From NCBI GenBank assembly GCA_016209865.1, contig JACQVL010000219.1, forward strand, positions 1-9,065: a DNA stretch of 9,065 nt, in the 5' to 3' direction. The stretch comes from Candidatus Latescibacterota bacterium (GTDB lineage: Bacteria; JAAXHH01; JACQVL01). The first letter of the stretch is position 1. The number at the start of each line of letters is the position of its first letter. Below are positions 229 through 8,455 of this stretch, one piece after another. The position numbers and the translations under genes are program-made. The notes beneath the pieces were generated by a model. It was not told the DNA's origin. It searched no databases and saw only the letters and a program-made list of their open reading frames with translations.

Positions 229-1977
229 CTACGCTTCATACAGGTCGACCGCCGTCTGACCGCGTGCGAACCGCAGGGCGGTCTGTGAGGCGGATTGGCT
301 GCCCGTCCGCTTGCGCACGTCGGTCGCCCAGCGGGCAAGGCCGATGAGCAATTGGTGACGGGCAGGATGGCCTTCGCACCCCTTCCACTCGTCAAACACC
401 GTCCGCAGCGTGTGGAGGAGGTTCCAGCCGTTGTCGTCTTTGAGGATCGACTGCCCCATCTCCAGTAACAGACGATGGCCAGAGAAGCCGGCGTTCAGAT
501 ACTCCCGCGTGTGCTGTCCAACCTCGCGGACCTGGATGGCCTCGATGGAGTCCAGCACGACCCGGAGCGCGGCGTCTTCGTCCGGTGCTTCCGATTTGGT
601 GGTCCCCAGGGGTTCAGTTAAGGAACGCGGGGCGATGTTGAGCCAGCGGTCGCTGAAGAATTGCCAGGCGACGTGGTACAGCGCCCGGGCCCCCACCGTA
701 AAACCGCCGTAGCGAAGCGCGGTCCGAACCGACGAGGCCAGCGTCATTTCCCGGCCCAGATTCCACCAGCCGGGGCTCATCGTCACCGGCGTCCGGGCCA
801 TCCGGTCGGCGGCCAGGAGAACCATCGTGGTGACGATCCGGTCGATATCGGCTCCAGCGTTCAGGGCGTCTGAGACGGCGGTAAATGTCTTCGTCAGATC
901 CCCGCTCACCAGTCCCTCGGCCAACGCGTCTTCATCGTATTCAGCGGCCGAATCGGCGGGCGTCTGTGAAGCCAGATGATCGATCAACCGATTGATCGGG
1001 TCGAACCTCTTCATCGCCGCCAGCCGGAGTTCTTCCGGCGCGCCCCGACCCCGGCCGAGCATCTTCGCGGCCAGGTTACAGACGAGTTCTTCGACCTGAT
1101 CCCATCCAAACTCTTCGAGCAACTCAGCCAGAGACCCCAAGTGTAAGAGGTTATCGGAGTAGCCCAAGAAGAAGGGTTCGACGGCGCATTCATAGAGCAA
1201 TGGCAGGATGTGCTCATCGTGGCCACCGCGCCGTCGTGCGGTGATCAGACACTTCTCGATCCCCTCCCACATCTTGTCTTCTGAGAACACACGAATCCAG
1301 TGAGAGAGCTTCTCCCAGGTCACCGGCGAGGGCAACGACTGGATCGCCGGCCGATCTCCCGCACGGCCTGACGCGCCCCGGGCCGCCATCATCAGCGGAA
1401 TCAGTCGATCATCCGGCTCGTAGTGCCGCGCCACTTTTACCCCATTGACCATCAGAGCGACCTGGTTTCCCCCGTCGGCGTCCCGTTCGGTGGCGATGTG
1501 CCGGCCCATGTGCTGCACGAGCATCTTCAACGTCTCCTGCTCGGACACTCCTTTCGCGAGCATGATGGCGATGGCCTTCGACAGGGTCCAGGTATCCGTA
1601 CTCAGCAACCCTTCTTTCAGCAGGAGCACGTGAGCATCCTTGCGTTTTGACCCCCCGCCGCGTACGTTGATGTAGATGGTGCCATCGCGAACATCGACGG
1701 GGAAGGTGTCGAGGTCATCACAGCCGCCGGTGAAACACCCGCCGCCGGCCATATCGTAGCTCCACCCATGCCAGTCGCAGGTCAACACCCCATGACGGAC
1801 CCGTCCCCGCGTCAGGGGATAGCCCATGTGCGGGCACTGGTTGTCCGTCGCGTAGACACGGCCCTGGTGCTGAAACAGCGCGATGCTGCGCCCTTCGACT
1901 TTGACCGCTTTGGGAGTCCCTTCAGGGACATCCGTGAGGTCAGCCACTTTGACGAAGTTGGAGGGTTTGCGTGGCAT
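229..1977 (-). CDS. Rieske [2Fe-2S] domain protein with long helical C-terminal region (paralogue A)
   Basis: This predicted 582-residue cytoplasmic protein has no signal peptide or membrane segment. Residues about 8-105 form a Rieske domain with C48-x-H50 and C67-x-x-H70 (CPHMG and CDWHG), the four ligands of a [2Fe-2S] cluster. The extra disulfide cysteines of respiratory Rieske proteins are absent, so it is of the ferredoxin/oxygenase-component type. A GGGCFTGGCDDL segment (78-89) follows and is largely shared with the paralogue. Residues about 115-582 are predicted helical and match no family I can name with confidence. They contain HxxxH (H156, H160), E267, D275-N276, H435 and H537, all conserved in the neighbour at 2078-3850. 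An electron-transfer role is known for the domain; a redox or oxygenase function of the helical part is inference. The ATG at 1977 is chosen because AAAGGAG (1985-1991) precedes it by 7 nt; the frame stays open further upstream, but that stretch is unlike the paralogue. It is probably cotranscribed with the upstream paralogue. Confidence 0.9.
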   Translation of the reverse strand: MPRKPSNFVKVADLTDVPEGTPKAVKVEGRSIALFQHQGRVYATDNQCPHMGYPLTRGRVRHGVLTCDWHGWSYDMAGGGCFTGGCDDLDTFPVDVRDGTIYINVRGGGSKRKDAHVLLLKEGLLSTDTWTLSKAIAIMLAKGVSEQETLKMLVQHMGRHIATERDADGGNQVALMVNGVKVARHYEPDDRLIPLMMAARGASGRAGDRPAIQSLPSPVTWEKLSHWIRVFSEDKMWEGIEKCLITARRRGGHDEHILPLLYECAVEPFFLGYSDNLLHLGSLAELLEEFGWDQVEELVCNLAAKMLGRGRGAPEELRLAAMKRFDPINRLIDHLASQTPADSAAEYDEDALAEGLVSGDLTKTFTAVSDALNAGADIDRIVTTMVLLAADRMARTPVTMSPGWWNLGREMTLASSVRTALRYGGFTVGARALYHVAWQFFSDRWLNIAPRSLTEPLGTTKSEAPDEDAALRVVLDSIEAIQVREVGQHTREYLNAGFSGHRLLLEMGQSILKDDNGWNLLHTLRTVFDEWKGCEGHPARHQLLIGLARWATDVRKRTGSQSASQTALRFARGQTAVDLYEA

Positions 1978-2036
1978 CGGGATTCTCCTTTGTGAGCGAC
2001 CTTGTAGGGGATTGCCTGCCGTGACCATCCCTGTAT

Positions 2037-2070
2037 CCTGTGCGTGCCAAAAGCAAGGCAACCACACAGG
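2037..2070 (-). other. Imperfect hairpin in the spacer between the two Rieske genes
   Basis: The 100-nt spacer between the two Rieske genes can fold on the minus strand: CCTGTGTG (2063-2070) pairs with CGCACAGG (2037-2044) with one G-T wobble, and a further GCC/GGC step lies across a small internal loop. No U-run follows, so it is not an intrinsic terminator. It could be an RNA-processing or stability element between the cistrons, or chance pairing. Confidence 0.3.
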
Positions 2071-2077
2071 GCTGCTC

Positions 2078-3850
2078 CTACTCCTCAAACACCTCTACCG
2101 TCGTTTTCCCCTCCGCAAAGCGCATCGCGGTCGTGGCGGCGGATTGGCTATCCTTATTGGTGCGGATGTCGGTCGCGTAGCGGGCAAGCCCGACCAGGAG
2201 CTGGAACCGAGCGGGATGTCCGGCGCCCAGGGCGGGGTCCGAACCGTGACACTGCTCCCATTCGTCGAAGACGATCCGCAGCGTGGGCAAGAGCTGCCTG
2301 CTGGTGTCATCCCAGAGGATGATCCGTCCCATCGCGTGCAACAACGTCTGCCCGGAGTATCCGGCGTTGAGATACCCCAGCACCTGCCGACCCACATCCT
2401 GCACGTTCAACGATTTGATGGAGTCGAGAATCACTCGCACGCCGGTCGCCTCGTCCGGTACGTTGAGTTTCTCGCCGCTGAGCGGTTCCGTGAGGGGCCG
2501 TACCGGAATGTTGAGCCAGCGGTCGGCAAAAATCTGCCAGGCCGCATGGAAGAGACCTTTCGCGGCCACGGTCGCTCCTCCACACCGTTGAGCGGTCCGT
2601 AGCGATGCCGCCAGGTGGAGTTCCGTCGTTAACGCGCCCCAGCCAGCATCGACGTTCACCGGTGTCCGCGCCATCCGATCCGCCGCCAGGAGCACCAGGG
2701 TGGTGACGAGACGATCCAGCCTGATATCGGCAGCCAGGACGGTTCCGATCGCGTCAAACGACTTCTGGATGTTCACGCTCCCTACGGCACTCACGAAAGC
2801 CTCTTCATCGTATTCAATCCTCTGGTTTGCAGACGCATGCGAGGCGGCTTCCTCGATAGACGGCACCATAGACGTCATCATGCTCACCGCATCCCTGCGG
2901 AAGCGCTCTGGCTCGCCCCGCCGGCGCCCGACCAGCTTGGCCCCCAAGTTGAAGATGAGCTCGGATGACTCCTTCCAGCCGAACAGATCGAGGACTTCCG
3001 AGAGGTATCCGAGCGAGATCAGGTTGTCGGCAAACCCGAGGAAATACGGCTCAACCGCACATGCAAAGAGCAATGGGAGGATCATCTCCCCATCGCCCTG
3101 ATGGTGTGCGGTGAAGAGGCATCGTTCGATCCGGCCACTCTGGGCATCATGGGAGAACATCCGCACCCAGCGATCAATCTTGTCCCGATCGACAGGCTCC
3201 GGCAGCGGTACGACCTCCAGTCGTTCCGCCGCCTGGCCGGCCGCAGAGCAAGCGGCGGTAGTCAGCGCAATCAGGCGGTCGGCGTCTTGATACCGTCGCC
3301 CCACGTTGAGGCCGTTGATCAATCGAGCCACATCCTTCCCACCGTCCGCCTCATGCGAACTGACGATGTGCCGCCCGATATGCCGGAGGATCAACTGTAC
3401 GATGTCGTCTTCTGCGACGCCGCCCTTCAGGAGCAACGCGATCGCCTTGGAGATCGTCCACCGGTCTTCACTCAGCAGTCCTTCCCACAGTAAACGGAGA
3501 TGCTCATCCCGGCGCCTGTACTGGGAATCGCCGACCTGAATCCAGATTTCACGGCCCCGAATGTCAACCGGAAACGTCTGTAAATCGTCGCACTCCGAGT
3601 TGAAACAGCCGCCTCCTTCCAGGTCGAAACTCCGGCCGTGCCAGTCGCAGGTCAGGATGCCGTGCCGAACGACACCCCGCGTCAAGGGATACCCCATGTG
3701 CGGACACTGATTCTCCGTCGCATAGACCCGACCATCGATGTTGAACAGCGCGATGCTGCGCCCTTCCCCTATCCGGATCGCTTTCGCCTCACCGGCTGGA
3801 ACATCGCTGAGGGAAGCCACGCATCTCCACTGCGGCGCTGGGCTGGACAT
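2078..3850 (-). CDS. Rieske [2Fe-2S] domain protein with long helical C-terminal region (paralogue B)
   Basis: This 590-residue protein is colinear with the product of 229-1977, and by eye about half or more of the positions are identical. The Rieske ligands are C49, H51, C68 and H71 (CPHMG, CDWHG), followed by GGGCFNSECDDL (79-90). The helical remainder keeps HxxxH (H157, H161), E267, D275-N276, H435 and H545. It also keeps blocks such as LLAADRMARTPV, DRWLNI, LTEPL and YLNAG. It lacks a signal peptide and membrane helices, so it is probably cytosolic. The start at 3850 follows AAAGGAG (3861-3867) by 10 nt; a GTG at 3853, 7 nt from the same site, is an equally good start and adds one residue. 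A longer in-frame ATG at 3946 is rejected because it would place coding sequence across the terminator at 3902-3966. It is the first gene of the Rieske pair, with 100 nt to the next. Tandem duplication is the simplest origin. The substrate is unknown. Confidence 0.9.
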   Translation of the reverse strand: MSSPAPQWRCVASLSDVPAGEAKAIRIGEGRSIALFNIDGRVYATENQCPHMGYPLTRGVVRHGILTCDWHGRSFDLEGGGCFNSECDDLQTFPVDIRGREIWIQVGDSQYRRRDEHLRLLWEGLLSEDRWTISKAIALLLKGGVAEDDIVQLILRHIGRHIVSSHEADGGKDVARLINGLNVGRRYQDADRLIALTTAACSAAGQAAERLEVVPLPEPVDRDKIDRWVRMFSHDAQSGRIERCLFTAHHQGDGEMILPLLFACAVEPYFLGFADNLISLGYLSEVLDLFGWKESSELIFNLGAKLVGRRRGEPERFRRDAVSMMTSMVPSIEEAASHASANQRIEYDEEAFVSAVGSVNIQKSFDAIGTVLAADIRLDRLVTTLVLLAADRMARTPVNVDAGWGALTTELHLAASLRTAQRCGGATVAAKGLFHAAWQIFADRWLNIPVRPLTEPLSGEKLNVPDEATGVRVILDSIKSLNVQDVGRQVLGYLNAGYSGQTLLHAMGRIILWDDTSRQLLPTLRIVFDEWEQCHGSDPALGAGHPARFQLLVGLARYATDIRTNKDSQSAATTAMRFAEGKTTVEVFEE

Positions 3851-3860
3851 CACAGCTTTA

Positions 3861-3867
3861 CTCCTTT
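3861..3867 (-). promoter_or_regulatory. Ribosome-binding site deciding the start of Rieske paralogue B
   Basis: AAAGGAG on the minus strand lies 10 nt before the ATG at 3850 and 7 nt before the GTG at 3853. The same heptamer precedes 229-1977 (7 nt), 3976-4332 (7 nt) and 7676-8455 (8 nt). This supports these starts and argues against the longer upstream reading. Confidence 0.75.
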
Positions 3868-3901: not shown

Positions 3902-3966
3902 AAAAAAAAGGACTGTCTTAGGACTGGATGCACGTCTGACCATCATCCTTCGTCCTGAGACAGTCC
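3902..3966 (-). terminator. Strong intrinsic terminator after the VOC gene, possible attenuator
   Basis: Read on the minus strand, GGACTGTCTCAGGAC (3952-3966) pairs with GTCCTAAGACAGTCC (3910-3924) over 15 positions with a single wobble, followed at once by eight U residues (3902-3909). The 27-nt loop holds a small inner pairing, GGATG with CATCC. It starts only 9 nt past the VOC stop codon. Its U-run ends 51 nt before the first Rieske gene, leaving little room for a separate promoter, and I see no convincing -35/-10 pair there. It may therefore act as a partial or regulated terminator within a four-gene transcript. Confidence 0.88.
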
Positions 3967-3975
3967 CTTGAGGAC

Positions 3976-4332
3976 TTACGCGCCCTCTCTGAAGAGGCCA
4001 ATGCAGTTGCCCGCCGGATCACTGAACCATGCGAAGCTCCCGGTGTTGGGAATCGGGGTGGGCGGGACGATCGTCTTTCCTCCGACACTCTCTATCTTCT
4101 TCAGGTAGGCCTCCAGGTCGTCAACCTGCACGTAGAACGTCACCCAGGAAGAGGGACCATTCGGGATCGACCCGGAGATACCGCCACCGATGCCACGTTC
4201 CGCCGCTTCCACCAGTCCATAATGCATCTCATCATGGCTGTGAATCTTCCAGTCGAAGACCTGCCCGTAGAACCGCTCAAGCTGCTTGCGATCGTTCCCC
4301 CCGACCTCGAAATGCACGACAGGGTGTCCCAT
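3976..4332 (-). CDS. VOC-superfamily (glyoxalase/bleomycin-resistance fold) protein
   Basis: This 118-residue protein is the usual length for a single-domain VOC protein. Visible landmarks are the first strand VVHFEV (5-10), the helix and turn LERFYGQVFDWKI (18-30), the second-module strand VTFYVQVDDLEAYLKKIESVGG (within 64-85), and the closing FSDPAGNCIGLF (103-114) typical of the glyoxalase-like COG3324 group. H7 is a possible first-strand metal ligand. The strand where many VOC enzymes carry a second His has Phe/Tyr here, so a classical metal-dependent glyoxalase I activity is doubtful. The substrate cannot be read from the sequence. The ATG at 4332 has AAAGGAG (4340-4346) 7 nt upstream. 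It follows the 64-aa gene by 20 nt and is very likely cotranscribed with it from the promoter at 4610-4638. The strong terminator at 3902-3966 follows directly. Confidence 0.9.
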   Translation of the reverse strand: MGHPVVHFEVGGNDRKQLERFYGQVFDWKIHSHDEMHYGLVEAAERGIGGGISGSIPNGPSSWVTFYVQVDDLEAYLKKIESVGGKTIVPPTPIPNTGSFAWFSDPAGNCIGLFREGA

Positions 4333-4352: not shown

Positions 4353-4547
4353 TTATGCGATAGCGACCGGTGTCGCGGTGATGCGGCGGTCGACGGTGAG
4401 CTTGACCGCCCGTTTCGGTGAGATCGTGAGATGGCCTTCGATCCGCTGCTTCGCTTCGTGATCGACGATGAACACATCGAGCGATTCTTCATGCTGGCGC
4501 TCGCTGACCTCGATGAGGAGCGTTTCGCCCTCGACGTAGACACGCAT
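4353..4547 (-). CDS. Small protein of unknown function, 64 aa
   Basis: I do not recognise this protein. From the ATG at 4547 it is 64 residues, with alternating hydrophobic residues suggesting beta strands (MRVYVEG, LLIEVSE, LDVFIVD, GHLTIS, AVKLTV). It has no cysteines, signal peptide or membrane segment. A longer reading from an ATG at 4610 is rejected: that codon lies inside the -10 box of the promoter serving this gene, so it would not be transcribed. The chosen start has a purine-rich GGGAGGG about 5 nt upstream, a weaker ribosome-binding site than the AAAGGAG of its neighbours. It is the first gene of the leftward unit, 20 nt before the VOC gene. A promoter this good directly in front of it supports a real gene, but the coding call is less secure than the others. 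Confidence 0.6.
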   Translation of the reverse strand: MRVYVEGETLLIEVSERQHEESLDVFIVDHEAKQRIEGHLTISPKRAVKLTVDRRITATPVAIA

Positions 4548-4600
4548 CTGGCCCTCCCTGGCGGCACGGTTTTCACGGGATCGGTTGGAGAACGGAGTAT

Positions 4601-4616
4601 CTATACACAAGTATAG
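4601..4616. promoter_or_regulatory. 16-bp palindromic operator over the -10 box
   Basis: The sequence CTATAC-ACAA-GTATAG is a perfect 6-bp inverted repeat with a 4-bp spacer. It covers the whole -10 hexamer (4610-4615) and the expected transcription start of the leftward promoter. A dimeric helix-turn-helix repressor bound here would block RNA polymerase. No regulator gene of that kind lies in the window, and I see no second copy of the palindrome. Confidence 0.6.
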
Positions 4617-4748: not shown

Positions 4749-5306
4749 GTGGAGACCATCTTGGAGCGTGAACGCCTCGGTATCGCGCAAGAGATAGAAC
4801 TGATCCAGCAGGCCCAACGCGGGAACCGGACCGCGTTCGAGCATCTGTACCGACACCACGTCGGCCGCGTCTATGCCATCTGCTTGAGGCTCTCCGCCGA
4901 CGCGGATCAGGCGGAGGAGTTGACGCAGGAGGTGTTTATCCGGGCGTGGCAGACGCTGTCCTCGTTCCGGGCGGAGAGCGCCTTCTCCTCCTGGCTGTAC
5001 CGTCTCGCCGTGAACGTCGCGTTCATCGACCGGCGGTCGCGACAGCGTCATCTGGCGAGAGTCACGGTCACCGACGACCTGTCGCCCTACGACCAGGAGG
5101 ATAGCCAGGCCTCCCCAGGGATAGGGCTTGACCTCGAACAGGCGATCGCCGGGCTGCCGCCGCAGGCCCGGCAGGTCTTCGTGCTCCACGATATCGAAGG
5201 GTACCGGCACGAGGAGATCGCCCGGCTCATGGGACTGGCGACGGGAACATCGAAAGCCCAGTTACACCGGGCGCGAAAACTGCTGAGGGAGGTGCTCGAA
5301 CGATGA
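4749..5306 (+). CDS. RNA polymerase ECF sigma factor (RpoE-like)
   Basis: This 185-residue protein is the usual ECF length and has only sigma regions 2 and 4. Region 2 (about 27-95) contains the core-binding and -10 recognition segment with DQAEELTQEVFIRAW (53-67) and the AFSSWLYRLAVNVAFID stretch. A linker (about 100-128) precedes region 4 (about 129-182), whose helix-turn-helix is built on GYRHEEIARLMGLATGT and the following SKAQLHRARKLLR. It should redirect RNA polymerase to a small regulon once released from the anti-sigma factor encoded next, with which it overlaps by 4 nt (ATGA). The start is uncertain: the GTG at 4749 gives the full reading but has no clear ribosome-binding site, while a TTG at 4761 has GGAG (4751-4754) 6 nt upstream and would shorten the protein by four residues without touching any domain. 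Confidence 0.94.
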   Translation: METILERERLGIAQEIELIQQAQRGNRTAFEHLYRHHVGRVYAICLRLSADADQAEELTQEVFIRAWQTLSSFRAESAFSSWLYRLAVNVAFIDRRSRQRHLARVTVTDDLSPYDQEDSQASPGIGLDLEQAIAGLPPQARQVFVLHDIEGYRHEEIARLMGLATGTSKAQLHRARKLLREVLER

Positions 5307-6448
5307 ACTGCGCTGAGGTGGATGATCGTCTGCATGCCTACATCAACGGGGACTTACCGAATGCAGAACGGCAGGTGGTCGAGGGGCATCTCGAACGGTG
5401 TCTGGACTGTCGCGCAGAGGCCGACCTCCTGCGCTCACTCATAGCCGATGTCGAGGCGCTCCCGACGCGCGTGCAACCCGCGCATGACCTCTGGCCGGCG
5501 GTCGAGGCACGGATCGAGAGGGATTCGATGACGAGACCCTGGTGGAAAACCGTCTTGCAGCGCGCTTCGAAGAACGGAGTCTATCGGGATCAGCGTGATT
5601 TTGCCGTCAGACTTCTTCATCCCCGGCGCCGATCTGCCTGGGCGGTTCGCGGGGTGCTGGCGGCGGCTGTGATCCTCCTGATGATGGCGGGAGTCTGGGT
5701 GCTCACGCGATCGTCACGAGGCGCATGGGAGGTGGCGCGCCGTACCGGGACACCCAGGATTGGAGCAGACCGGATGGAGGCCATCGATCGTCTTCAGGTG
5801 GGAGAGTGGGTGGAGACGGATGATTCCTCACGGGTGACGATCAAGGTCGGGACGATCGGACAGGTGGACCTCGACCCGAACACCCGCGTCCGTCTTGTCG
5901 AAACCCGCCTGACCGAGCACCGCCTTGCCCTGGATCGGGGGACGCTGCACGCGAGGATCTGGGCCCCCCCGCGCCTCTTCTTCGTCGAAACGCCGTCCGC
6001 CGTGGCGATCGACCTCGGCTGCGCGTACACCCTCGCCGTGGATGACACCGGCCGCGGGCTGCTGCACGTCACCGCTGGCCAGGTCGAGCTCGAACGGGAT
6101 GGCCGGACGTCGGTCGTCCCCGCTGGCGCGCTGTGCGAGACGCGGCCGGGGATCGGTCCCGGCACCCCTTTCTCTGAACAGGCATCCGGAACGCTCCGGC
6201 GCGCGCTGGCCCTGTTCGATTTTGAGAAGGGGGGAAATGGGGCGCTCACGACCGTCCTCGCTGAGGCGCGCGAACACGATGCGCTCACCCTTTGGTCCCT
6301 GTTCTCCCGCGTGGATTGGGCCGCACGCGGCCGGGTGTATGATCGCATGGCCATGCTCATCCCGCCGCCGGAAGGCGTCACACGGGACGGCGTGCTGAGA
6401 CTCGACCGGCGCATGCTCGACCGCTGGAACGAGCATCTCGGCCTATGA
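5303..6448 (+). CDS. Zinc-finger anti-sigma factor fused to a FecR-type periplasmic domain
   Basis: This is a 381-residue single-pass membrane protein. Residues 1-50 are a putative zinc-finger anti-sigma domain with C3 and H29-x3-C33-x2-C36, the motif that holds ECF sigma factors. A basic linker (about 78-112) leads to one transmembrane helix (about 114-135, VLAAAVILLMMAGVWVL). The arginines precede the helix, which fits an N-in, C-out topology. Residues about 145-280 form a FecR-like beta-rich domain: QVGEWVETDDSSRVTIKVG, the DPNTRVRLVE strand, GTLHARI, FVETPSAVAIDLGCAYTL and GLLHVTAGQVEL. A helical tail (about 296-381) ends in ALTLWSLFSRVDWAARGRVYDRM and a DRRMLDRWNEHLGL terminus. The start overlaps the sigma gene stop (ATGA), indicating translational coupling and matched stoichiometry. 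In classical FecIRA systems the FecR domain senses a TonB receptor; none is encoded here, so the periplasmic signal is unknown. Confidence 0.9.
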   Translation: MNCAEVDDRLHAYINGDLPNAERQVVEGHLERCLDCRAEADLLRSLIADVEALPTRVQPAHDLWPAVEARIERDSMTRPWWKTVLQRASKNGVYRDQRDFAVRLLHPRRRSAWAVRGVLAAAVILLMMAGVWVLTRSSRGAWEVARRTGTPRIGADRMEAIDRLQVGEWVETDDSSRVTIKVGTIGQVDLDPNTRVRLVETRLTEHRLALDRGTLHARIWAPPRLFFVETPSAVAIDLGCAYTLAVDDTGRGLLHVTAGQVELERDGRTSVVPAGALCETRPGIGPGTPFSEQASGTLRRALALFDFEKGGNGALTTVLAEAREHDALTLWSLFSRVDWAARGRVYDRMAMLIPPPEGVTRDGVLRLDRRMLDRWNEHLGL

Positions 6449-6450
6449 AG

Positions 6451-6456
6451 AGGAGG
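6451..6456 (+). promoter_or_regulatory. Ribosome-binding site deciding the propeller gene start
   Basis: A consensus AGGAGG lies 6 nt before the ATG at 6463. The in-frame ATG at 6445 overlaps the preceding stop as ATGA but has no Shine-Dalgarno sequence in front of it. This favours initiation at 6463, although coupled initiation at 6445 remains possible. Confidence 0.7.
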
Positions 6457-6462
6457 AAGTCT

Positions 6463-7650
6463 ATGACCCGTTTTGCGGTCCTGGCTGTGTTCGTCTCGAT
6501 GGGCTGGGCGACTCAACTCAACTCACAAAGCCCGTTGTTTGCGCCCGCGCCCGCCTCGCCCGTCACAGTCGGGCCGGGATCGGGTACAGTTGTGCTTGCG
6601 GATATCAACCGCGACGGGCATCTCGATCTGCTCACGAAGCATTTGCTGAATCAGAGCGTGGCCGTGCGGCTTGGCGACGGCAACGGGCACTTTGCGCCGG
6701 GTGCCGAGCGGCCGATGAGTTTCGGCTACCAGCCGGGAGCGATCGCGCTTGGTGACGTCAACAACGACGGAATTCTTGACCTGGGCGTCACGAGCAGAGA
6801 TAGCGTCAGAGAGAACGTCGCCATCTTCCTGGGCAACGGCAGGGGCGGCTTCAGTCTGGCCTCCGGGTCGCCCTTCGCCGCGAGTGCGTCCACCAAGGGG
6901 TACAAGCCCAGTCTTCGTTTTGTGGACGTCAACGAGGATGGAAAGCTGGACATCGTCAAAGCGAATGGCCGGCGGAACACCATCGAGATCCTTCTTGGAA
7001 ACGGTCGCGGAGGGTTCTCCCCAGGACCGATTGTGAGGCTGGAGCCTGGTCAAAACTTTTATTCCTTCGAGATTGGCGATGTTGACGGAGATGGACATCT
7101 TGACGTGGTGACCGCGAGCAGTCCGGGGCCAGGTCTGGGGACCGGCCGCGTCATGACGAAGCATGGGGACGGGAAAGGCAACTTCAGGGACGCGTCTGGT
7201 TCACCGTTGTCCGTCCCACCGGATCCGCGCGTCGGGACGCTCGCGGATGTGAACGGCGATCGACGTCTTGACATCGTGCTCAGCCACGGCGACCGCAGCC
7301 TTCTGAGCGTCCTGTTGAACGACGGCCACGGCATGTTCACGCCTGCGCCTGGTTCACCACTGAACCTTTGGAATCAGACATTTGTCGTGGTCGTCGCCGA
7401 TGTCAACCAGGACGAGAAGGCCGATCTCCTTGCAGCAACAGTCAATAGTCGCACCGCGCCGTTCGAATCAAGAATCGTGGTTCTTCTTGGCGCCGGCCGC
7501 GATGGGTTCGCGCCCGCGCCCGGCTCGCCGTTCCGCGCCGGACCAGGCGCCTACCACCTCACCGTGGGGGACGTCAACGAGGATGGCAAACTCGACGTCG
7601 CGGCCTCCAGCTTTGAGGGCAACGCCGTGACCGTGCTCCTGGCTCGATAA
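6463..7650 (+). CDS. Secreted seven-bladed FG-GAP/VCBS-repeat beta-propeller protein
   Basis: This 395-residue exported protein begins with a short signal peptide (FAVLAVFVSMGWA, 4-16). From the alternative ATG at 6445 the leader gains MKRRKS, a more typical positive start, so that start is not excluded. Seven repeats carry the calcium-loop motif DxNxDGxxD or a variant: ADINRDGHLD (46-55), GDVNNDGILD (97), VDVNEDGKLD (154), GDVDGDGHLD (205), ADVNGDRRLD (261), ADVNQDEKAD (312) and GDVNEDGKLD (369). They are spaced 51-57 residues apart and followed by LLGNGRGGFS-type turns. Repeats 5 and 6 have lost the Gly of the loop and probably bind calcium less well. The last repeat stops before its GxGxF turn, and the N-terminus (SPLFAPAPASPVTVGPG) supplies the missing piece, as in ring-closed propellers. 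Integrin-like and lectin-like propellers of this kind act in extracellular binding. Its position directly after the sigma/anti-sigma pair suggests a signal, sensor or output role, which is inference. Confidence 0.9.
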   Translation: MTRFAVLAVFVSMGWATQLNSQSPLFAPAPASPVTVGPGSGTVVLADINRDGHLDLLTKHLLNQSVAVRLGDGNGHFAPGAERPMSFGYQPGAIALGDVNNDGILDLGVTSRDSVRENVAIFLGNGRGGFSLASGSPFAASASTKGYKPSLRFVDVNEDGKLDIVKANGRRNTIEILLGNGRGGFSPGPIVRLEPGQNFYSFEIGDVDGDGHLDVVTASSPGPGLGTGRVMTKHGDGKGNFRDASGSPLSVPPDPRVGTLADVNGDRRLDIVLSHGDRSLLSVLLNDGHGMFTPAPGSPLNLWNQTFVVVVADVNQDEKADLLAATVNSRTAPFESRIVVLLGAGRDGFAPAPGSPFRAGPGAYHLTVGDVNEDGKLDVAASSFEGNAVTVLLAR

Positions 7651-7675: not shown

Positions 7676-8455
7676 TCACGCGAGCGACACCAGAGCGCCG
7701 ACGAGCGTCCGGCTTCGCGTGAGGGCGTCAAGCGGGTCTGGCAGCGCGGGACTCAGCTCAAGGCTGACCGCCCCGGCATAGCCGATGCCGTCGAGCGCCG
7801 CGAACGTGCGGCGCAGGGTCTCCACCGTCAGCACGCCATCCGTCAGCGCTACGTGCAGGTCGTTGCGGCCATCGTTGTCGTCCAGGTGGACGTAGCCGAG
7901 GCATGGTCCGGCATCCGCGATGATAGCAGCCGGGTCTTCTCCGGACATCTGCGCATGGCCGATGTCGAGGAGAAGGGACAGGCCGGGATGGCCGATTGTC
8001 CGCAGAAAGGCGAGGGTGGCCGCGGCGGTGGGAAGGGCTGAACCGGGAAAGTGCTCGACGCAGAGCGTGATGCCGAGGGCTGAAGCCCGGTCCGCCGCGG
8101 CGATCAGCGACCGGGCGTAGCGGTCGAGCGCCTCCTGGCTTCCATCCTTTCCGGGGACGAGGTAGGCGGCGGTCGCGCCAAGCTCTGCGCCGCAGGTCAG
8201 GACTTGCCTGGTGTACGTCAACGCCTGCGCGATGGCGTCCGCCTCCGGGTTGTCGAGCGCCGCGCCATCCGGCAGTCCGAACGACGCGGCCACGCACGAG
8301 ACGCGCAGGCCGAGCGCCCGGACGCGCGCGCGCGCCGCCTCGGACGTGAACCCGTACGGCCGGACGTCGATCCACCGGAAGTCCGCGTCCGCGAGCCGAG
8401 CGACCACGTCATCGTCTGAACCGGAGAGCGCCCAGGTACAGCAGGAAAGGATCAC
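7676..8455 (-). CDS. Sugar phosphate isomerase/epimerase family TIM-barrel protein
   Basis: This 259-residue protein is of the xylose isomerase-like (AP endonuclease 2) TIM-barrel superfamily, which includes sugar and inosose isomerases, epimerases and dehydratases. The metal-binding pattern can be followed: E134 (CVEHFPG), D164 and H167 (LLLDIGHAQ), H190 (GYVHLDDNDG) and E233 (SLELSP), with H201 in NDLHVALTDG near the active site. The protein is short for the superfamily but complete, from the first strand (ILSCCTWAL) to the last helix. The exact substrate cannot be read from the sequence. Translation starts at a GTG (8455) with AAAGGAG (8464-8470) 8 nt upstream. It lies 21 nt downstream of the hydrolase gene and is probably cotranscribed with it. 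It is convergent with the propeller gene, with only 25 nt between the two stop codons and no hairpin that I can see there. Confidence 0.88.
   Translation of the reverse strand: MILSCCTWALSGSDDDVVARLADADFRWIDVRPYGFTSEAARARVRALGLRVSCVAASFGLPDGAALDNPEADAIAQALTYTRQVLTCGAELGATAAYLVPGKDGSQEALDRYARSLIAAADRASALGITLCVEHFPGSALPTAAATLAFLRTIGHPGLSLLLDIGHAQMSGEDPAAIIADAGPCLGYVHLDDNDGRNDLHVALTDGVLTVETLRRTFAALDGIGYAGAVSLELSPALPDPLDALTRSRTLVGALVSLA

Follow-up and report, generated by a model that had tools for sequence, protein, structure and literature searches.

A co-inherited tandem pair of Rieske proteins with a predicted questin-oxidase-like helical domain in Latescibacterota

What could be the role of two adjacent genes which each join a Rieske cluster to a large helical domain? 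We addressed this question for a pair of genes, here called A and B, in a Latescibacterota draft genome (3.75 Mb, 83% complete), where the analysed window is an entire contig (C166) of 9065 bases (Table 1). The original prediction had described two adjacent colinear genes for proteins of 582 and 590 residues, each a Rieske-helical fusion and together a duplication, and this was borne out by the open reading frames, by Pfam Rieske matches in both proteins and by an identity of 53-54% between A and B (51% in their helical parts). The ATG of B is at 3850 and is preceded by AAAGGAG at 3867-3861 on the minus strand. A and B are real genes, as both orthologues were present at 41 fetched loci and the dN/dS (NG86) against the nearest relative (L055, about 80% identity) was about 0.14 for each; the helical parts gave values similar to those of the whole proteins, and both genes are under purifying selection. 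Between B and the glyoxalase-like gene upstream of it stands a strong terminator-like hairpin, and it is therefore probable that B and A are transcribed as a separate unit. A shared flanking unit, which had also been claimed for the two genes, was not found; the glyoxalase-like gene is closed off by this hairpin and has no counterpart in the compared loci, L055 included.

Table 1. Positions of genes, domains and sequence signals in the 9065-base window
Feature	Position	Strand	Basis
Gene A, 582 aa, Rieske and helical domain	229-1977	-	ORF; orthologues in 44 loci; dN/dS about 0.14
A: all-helical domain, residues 115-582, predicted questin-oxidase-like fold	232-1635	-	AlphaFold2 pLDDT about 91; 8yxs Z 13.8, 8z4q Z 12.4
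A: H156xxxH160, a motif conserved exclusively in A and B	1498-1512	-	H156 in 26/26 and H160 in 25/26 A and B sequences; C/D are gapped at the H156 column
A: Rieske [2Fe-2S] domain, residues 7-106; ligands C48, H50, C67, H70	1660-1959	-	Pfam PF00355 E 1e-19; ligands invariant; VIA matches to Rieske ferredoxins, BphA3 among them, with Z up to 19
Gene B, 590 aa, Rieske and helical domain	2078-3850	-	ORF; start matches homologues and Shine-Dalgarno sequence
B: helical domain, a homologue of the helical domain in A	2081-3502	-	51% identity to A in this part
B: Rieske [2Fe-2S] domain	3536-3832	-	Pfam PF00355 E 5e-17; four ligands intact
Shine-Dalgarno-like AAAGGAG 5' of B	3861-3867	-	Read from sequence
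Terminator-like hairpin with U-run between glyoxalase-like gene and B; upstream edge of B-A unit	3902-3970	-	MFE -35.7 kcal/mol, z -6.8, then eight U
Glyoxalase/VOC-family gene, upstream of B, followed by strong terminator-like hairpin	3976-4332	-	Pfam; hairpin computed
Small ORF of 85 aa, no Pfam match; directly preceded by a promoter-like site at 4638-4610 (11 of 12)	4353-4610	-	ORF
ECF sigma factor, zf-HC2/FecR anti-sigma-like protein and FG-GAP repeat protein in a row, ends overlapping	4749-7650	+	ORFs, Pfam
Xylose-isomerase-like TIM barrel gene	7676-8455	-	Pfam AP_endonuc_2
Alpha/beta hydrolase gene, truncated by contig end	8477-9064	-	ORF, Pfam

The ferredoxin-type Rieske domain expected at the N-terminus of both proteins was confirmed. 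Pfam matches it at residues 8-83 in A (E 1e-19) and at residues 6-93 in B (E 5e-17), and the nearest solved structures for this part are the Rieske ferredoxins of dioxygenases. All four ligands of the cluster are invariant across the family alignment, and the pattern CxH ... CxxH, with its two Cys and two His, was present in every full-length protein that we checked (43 of group A, 42 of group B and 31 of the related groups C and D described below). Rieske ferredoxins such as BphF/BphA3, the naphthalene dioxygenase ferredoxin and NirD have the same Rieske fold and ligands as A (Z up to 19), but they are proteins of about 105 residues and, unlike A and B, carry no second domain.

Beyond about residue 110 neither A nor B gave any match in Pfam or NCBIfam, and the helical domain used as a direct query found none in Pfam, NCBIfam or the PDB sequences. 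We modelled protein A with AlphaFold2 using 52 homologues; the mean pLDDT reached 91.4 over the full length and 91.7 for just the helical part, and the second domain (residues 115-582) was modelled as helices only. In the structure search with the whole protein, the sole listed match across the helical domain was 8yxs (Z 13.8, 334 residues), which the sequence library lists as AflY. When the search was restricted to the helical domain, the sole full-span match was 8z4q, the hydroquinone dioxygenase PaD (Z 12.4 over 314 residues with an rmsd of 4.4), the remaining long-span matches being pentatricopeptide-type proteins with Z below 6 and rmsd above 12. When searched against the PDB, the profile of bacterial questin oxidases matched exactly 8z4q, 7y3w-7y3y (BTG13) and 8yxs, so that both structural matches belong to one small family. 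Since Z values up to about 13 between helical proteins may reflect a common arrangement, the fold assignment, made on a predicted model, rests on the coincidence of two members of this family together with the His motifs described below. Taken together, the modelled domain very likely shares a fold relationship with the questin-oxidase family.

At the sequence level, no combination was significant in the profile-profile comparison with questin oxidases (P 0.06 or worse). The questin-oxidase family profile PF14027 had no match among 52 members (E up to 1), in the 16 genomes of the window's phylum, or in 194 sampled genomes of the cyanobacterial phylum, a search in which the control also gave no match. 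For the helical domain, Foldseek alone returned nothing below E 0.1, the viral structure library gave nothing useful, and the heme-oxygenase-like diiron fold was absent among the best structural matches listed. The domain had originally been called helical and uncharacterised; the former agrees with the model, while the latter gave way to the fold match with the questin-oxidase family, which the same prediction had proposed checking. That check came out divided, as the structural matches to 8yxs and 8z4q were obtained but the metal-binding His of the family are gone in A and B. The predicted absence of a typical Rieske oxygenase catalytic domain held, given that the second domain was modelled as helices only and no Pfam catalytic domain matched, and the whole protein gave no match to a characterised Rieske oxygenase or other named enzyme family. 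Conserved His and acidic residues, such as a 2-His-1-carboxylate iron site would require, do occur in A and B.

Relatives of the pair were found widely. A third paralogue, of group C, is located elsewhere in the same genome (L003 934-2697) and is 29% identical to A, with the Rieske-helical architecture of A and B; group D is likewise Rieske-fused. All 16 genomes of the window's phylum that were searched carry a match, and a scan of named genomes gave 78 loci, mostly labelled Poribacteria, Latescibacterota, Gammaproteobacteria, Chloroflexota and cyanobacteria, these labels being those of metagenome bins; a scan of viral contigs turned up no relatives. Using a profile of the helical domain alone we found two further groups. 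Group E (L150, L151, L163) is Rieske-fused and comes from genomes in the phyla of L095 (Pseudomonadota) and L107 (cyanobacteria), and group F (L177-L185), from the phylum of L112 (Chloroflexota), comprises proteins about 480 aa long that consist of the helical domain and have no Rieske motif. Profile comparison strongly supported the homology of E with C, of F with C, and of C with A and B. In a tree of the helical domain, built by a quick method with SH-aLRT support only, groups A, B, C/D, E and F were separate and unmixed (98 for B, 80 for A and 66 for C/D), with A and B as sister clades that have several phyla in common. B lies 5' of A on the same strand in 41 of the 41 loci having both, from Poribacteria, Latescibacterota, Gammaproteobacteria and others; A was found without B at three loci (L063, L085 and L086), all of which are short or begin near the gene. 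The sister clades with the same phyla, the constant position of B upstream of A and the low dN/dS establish that the B-A pair is an old duplication which has been retained as a unit under selection. It is highly probable that A and B are obligate partners, and their proteins probably form a heteromer.

To see what became of the metal site we used a joint unconstrained alignment of 13 A, 13 B, 26 C/D, 3 E and 8 F sequences, with columns numbered by the residues of A. Columns 275 and 519 are His in every C/D, E and F sequence (26/26, 3/3 and 8/8 at each). All E and F sequences and 11 of C/D have His at column 409, where the other 15 C/D have Asn, and column 415 in C/D is His or Asn reciprocally to column 409. 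This His/Asn exchange in C and D takes place between two positions which are six residues apart and match the two His of the questin-oxidase motif LHxVTGxHA. At column 522 the E sequences have Lys, and those of C/D and most of F have Gln; the correspondence of E with C at columns 519 and 522 rests on the joint alignment and the motif, as the pairwise profile alignment left this stretch unaligned. The His kept in C, D, E and F agree in order and spacing with FHxLIRLAYG, LHxVTGxHA and DxHxxK, the motifs of questin oxidases. In BTG13 the iron ligands are four His and a carboxylated lysine (K377), and the Lys of DDGHLAK is at 377 in the 7y3w numbering. The group C paralogue of the same genome keeps His 275, 409 and 519 and Gln 522 and, unlike A and B, is a single unpaired gene. 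In A and B none of columns 275, 409, 519 and 522 is conserved as His or Lys; the metal-binding His motifs of questin oxidases, partly kept in C/D, E and F, are lost. These alignments show the ancestral questin-type His positions lost from A and B, two genes which nonetheless evolve under purifying selection, and their helical domain is a derived and probably iron-less form.

We also looked for partners among the neighbouring genes, and no conserved partner enzyme adjoining the B-A pair was found in the compared loci. The glyoxalase-like gene beside B was rejected, as it is not conserved in these loci, and ankyrin, WD40 and MORN genes were rejected as they recur only around Poribacteria pairs. 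Such repeat genes were observed between or after B and A at L064, L072, L075 and other Poribacteria loci. A gene for a SorA-like sulfite dehydrogenase is located downstream of A in a single genus of the window's phylum (L062 9759-11090), and eight Poribacteria loci have such a gene downstream of group D (L127 9738-11096); the two are about 46% identical. The N-termini of these SorA-like proteins are Tat-signal-like, hence exported-looking, and A and B carry no signal sequence; no close copy of this molybdoenzyme was found in the window's genome (83% complete). Owing to the Tat-like N-terminus and the missing copy, the SorA-like neighbour remains a lead as a partner of the family.

We propose that in groups C, D and E the Rieske cluster would pass electrons to an iron in the helical domain of the same chain, a coupling that may be likened to that of Rieske oxygenases, but with an unrelated catalytic fold. 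A and B, devoid of the ancestral site, would together serve as a Rieske electron carrier or a regulatory pseudo-oxygenase and dock on some other redox enzyme. The simplest reading of the pair is therefore a two-subunit Rieske electron carrier or pseudo-oxygenase, with a rebuilt metal site as its main rival. We give slightly less than an even chance to the full proposal, namely that A and B are two partners, each with a Rieske and a questin-oxidase-like (AflY/BTG13/PaD) domain, which act as carrier or pseudo-oxygenase without that site; the carrier or pseudo-oxygenase role taken by itself is put forward tentatively. Against it stand the non-significant profile comparison, the Z range in which helical proteins call for caution, the failure to find a conserved partner enzyme beside the pair, and the exported-looking SorA-like neighbour of proteins without a signal sequence. 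The His and acidic residues conserved specifically in A and B (H156, H160, D391, E410, E530) also fit a rebuilt site. In such a case the A-B pair would be an active Rieske-coupled oxygenase in which the ancestral His have been replaced, in one or both subunits, by a new metal site, for example one putatively formed by H156xxxH160 with D391, E410, H435, E530 or H537. The near-complete conservation of the two His (Table 1), the presence of D391, E410 and E530 in all 26 A and B sequences, the retained Rieske cluster and the purifying selection on both genes are consistent with this, but sequences this similar are expected to share conserved polar residues anyway, and we regard a rebuilt site as possible while leaning against it.

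Two other explanations concern the helical domain itself. It could be a mere helical-repeat scaffold for protein-protein contact, without common descent with questin oxidases, in which case the fold match would be convergent. MgsA and clamp-loader collars match it locally, over about 92-93 residues only (Z 12.3 over 93), a few members gave weak Pfam matches to MgsA_C and Rep_fac_C, which along with those to PhageMetallopep we took as helical-repeat noise, and the profile comparison with questin oxidases was, as stated, not significant. But both full-span structural matches came from one small family, and the His kept in C, D, E and F follow the motif order and spacing of that family, which makes a convergent scaffold unlikely. 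That A and B are ordinary alpha subunits of Rieske non-heme iron oxygenases with a highly divergent alpha/beta catalytic domain is very improbable; the N-terminal Rieske domain is common to both, but the second domain was confidently modelled without any strand, the listed Rieske oxygenase structures align with the Rieske part only, and no Pfam catalytic domain was detected.

Compared with known enzymes, A and B resemble the alpha subunits of Rieske non-heme iron oxygenases in having an N-terminal Rieske domain and a large second domain in one chain. They differ from them in that the second domain is all-helical instead of the alpha/beta (helix-grip) catalytic fold, and in that the Rieske part is closest to ferredoxins. 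With the questin-oxidase family PF14027 (AflY, 8yxs; BTG13, 7y3w, 7y3x and 7y3y; PaD, 8z4q) the model of A shares the all-helical fold over 314-334 residues, and that family shares the His in motif register with groups C, D, E and F, and HxxK with E; A and B, on the other hand, have a Rieske domain fused in front, show no significant sequence match to it and have lost the motif His and Lys. Each domain is already of a known kind. We found no description of their combination in this Rieske-helical architecture, or of a tandem pair without the metal-site residues, in the literature searched, most subscription journals being outside its coverage. The A-B pair points to an undescribed kind of Rieske protein, and the wider family has a fair chance of being a new, undescribed class of Rieske-coupled iron oxygenases.

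To our knowledge, all Rieske oxygenases characterised so far have one and the same catalytic fold coupled to the cluster. We suggest, with some reserve, that the present family is a second, independent evolutionary route to Rieske-driven O2 activation via a questin-oxidase-like iron domain, with A-B as a derived heteromer whose site has been lost or rebuilt around HxxxH. If true, the joining of the cluster, in several phyla, to an all-helical fold related to fungal ring-cleaving enzymes would point to two origins of the coupling, and questin-oxidase-type chemistry would gain a built-in electron supply. The A-B pair, which is inherited together but lacks the residues of the ancestral metal site, provides a natural case in which to test ideas on pseudo-enzyme partners or on the rebuilding of metal sites, and the intact group C paralogue in the same genome offers a direct comparison for it.
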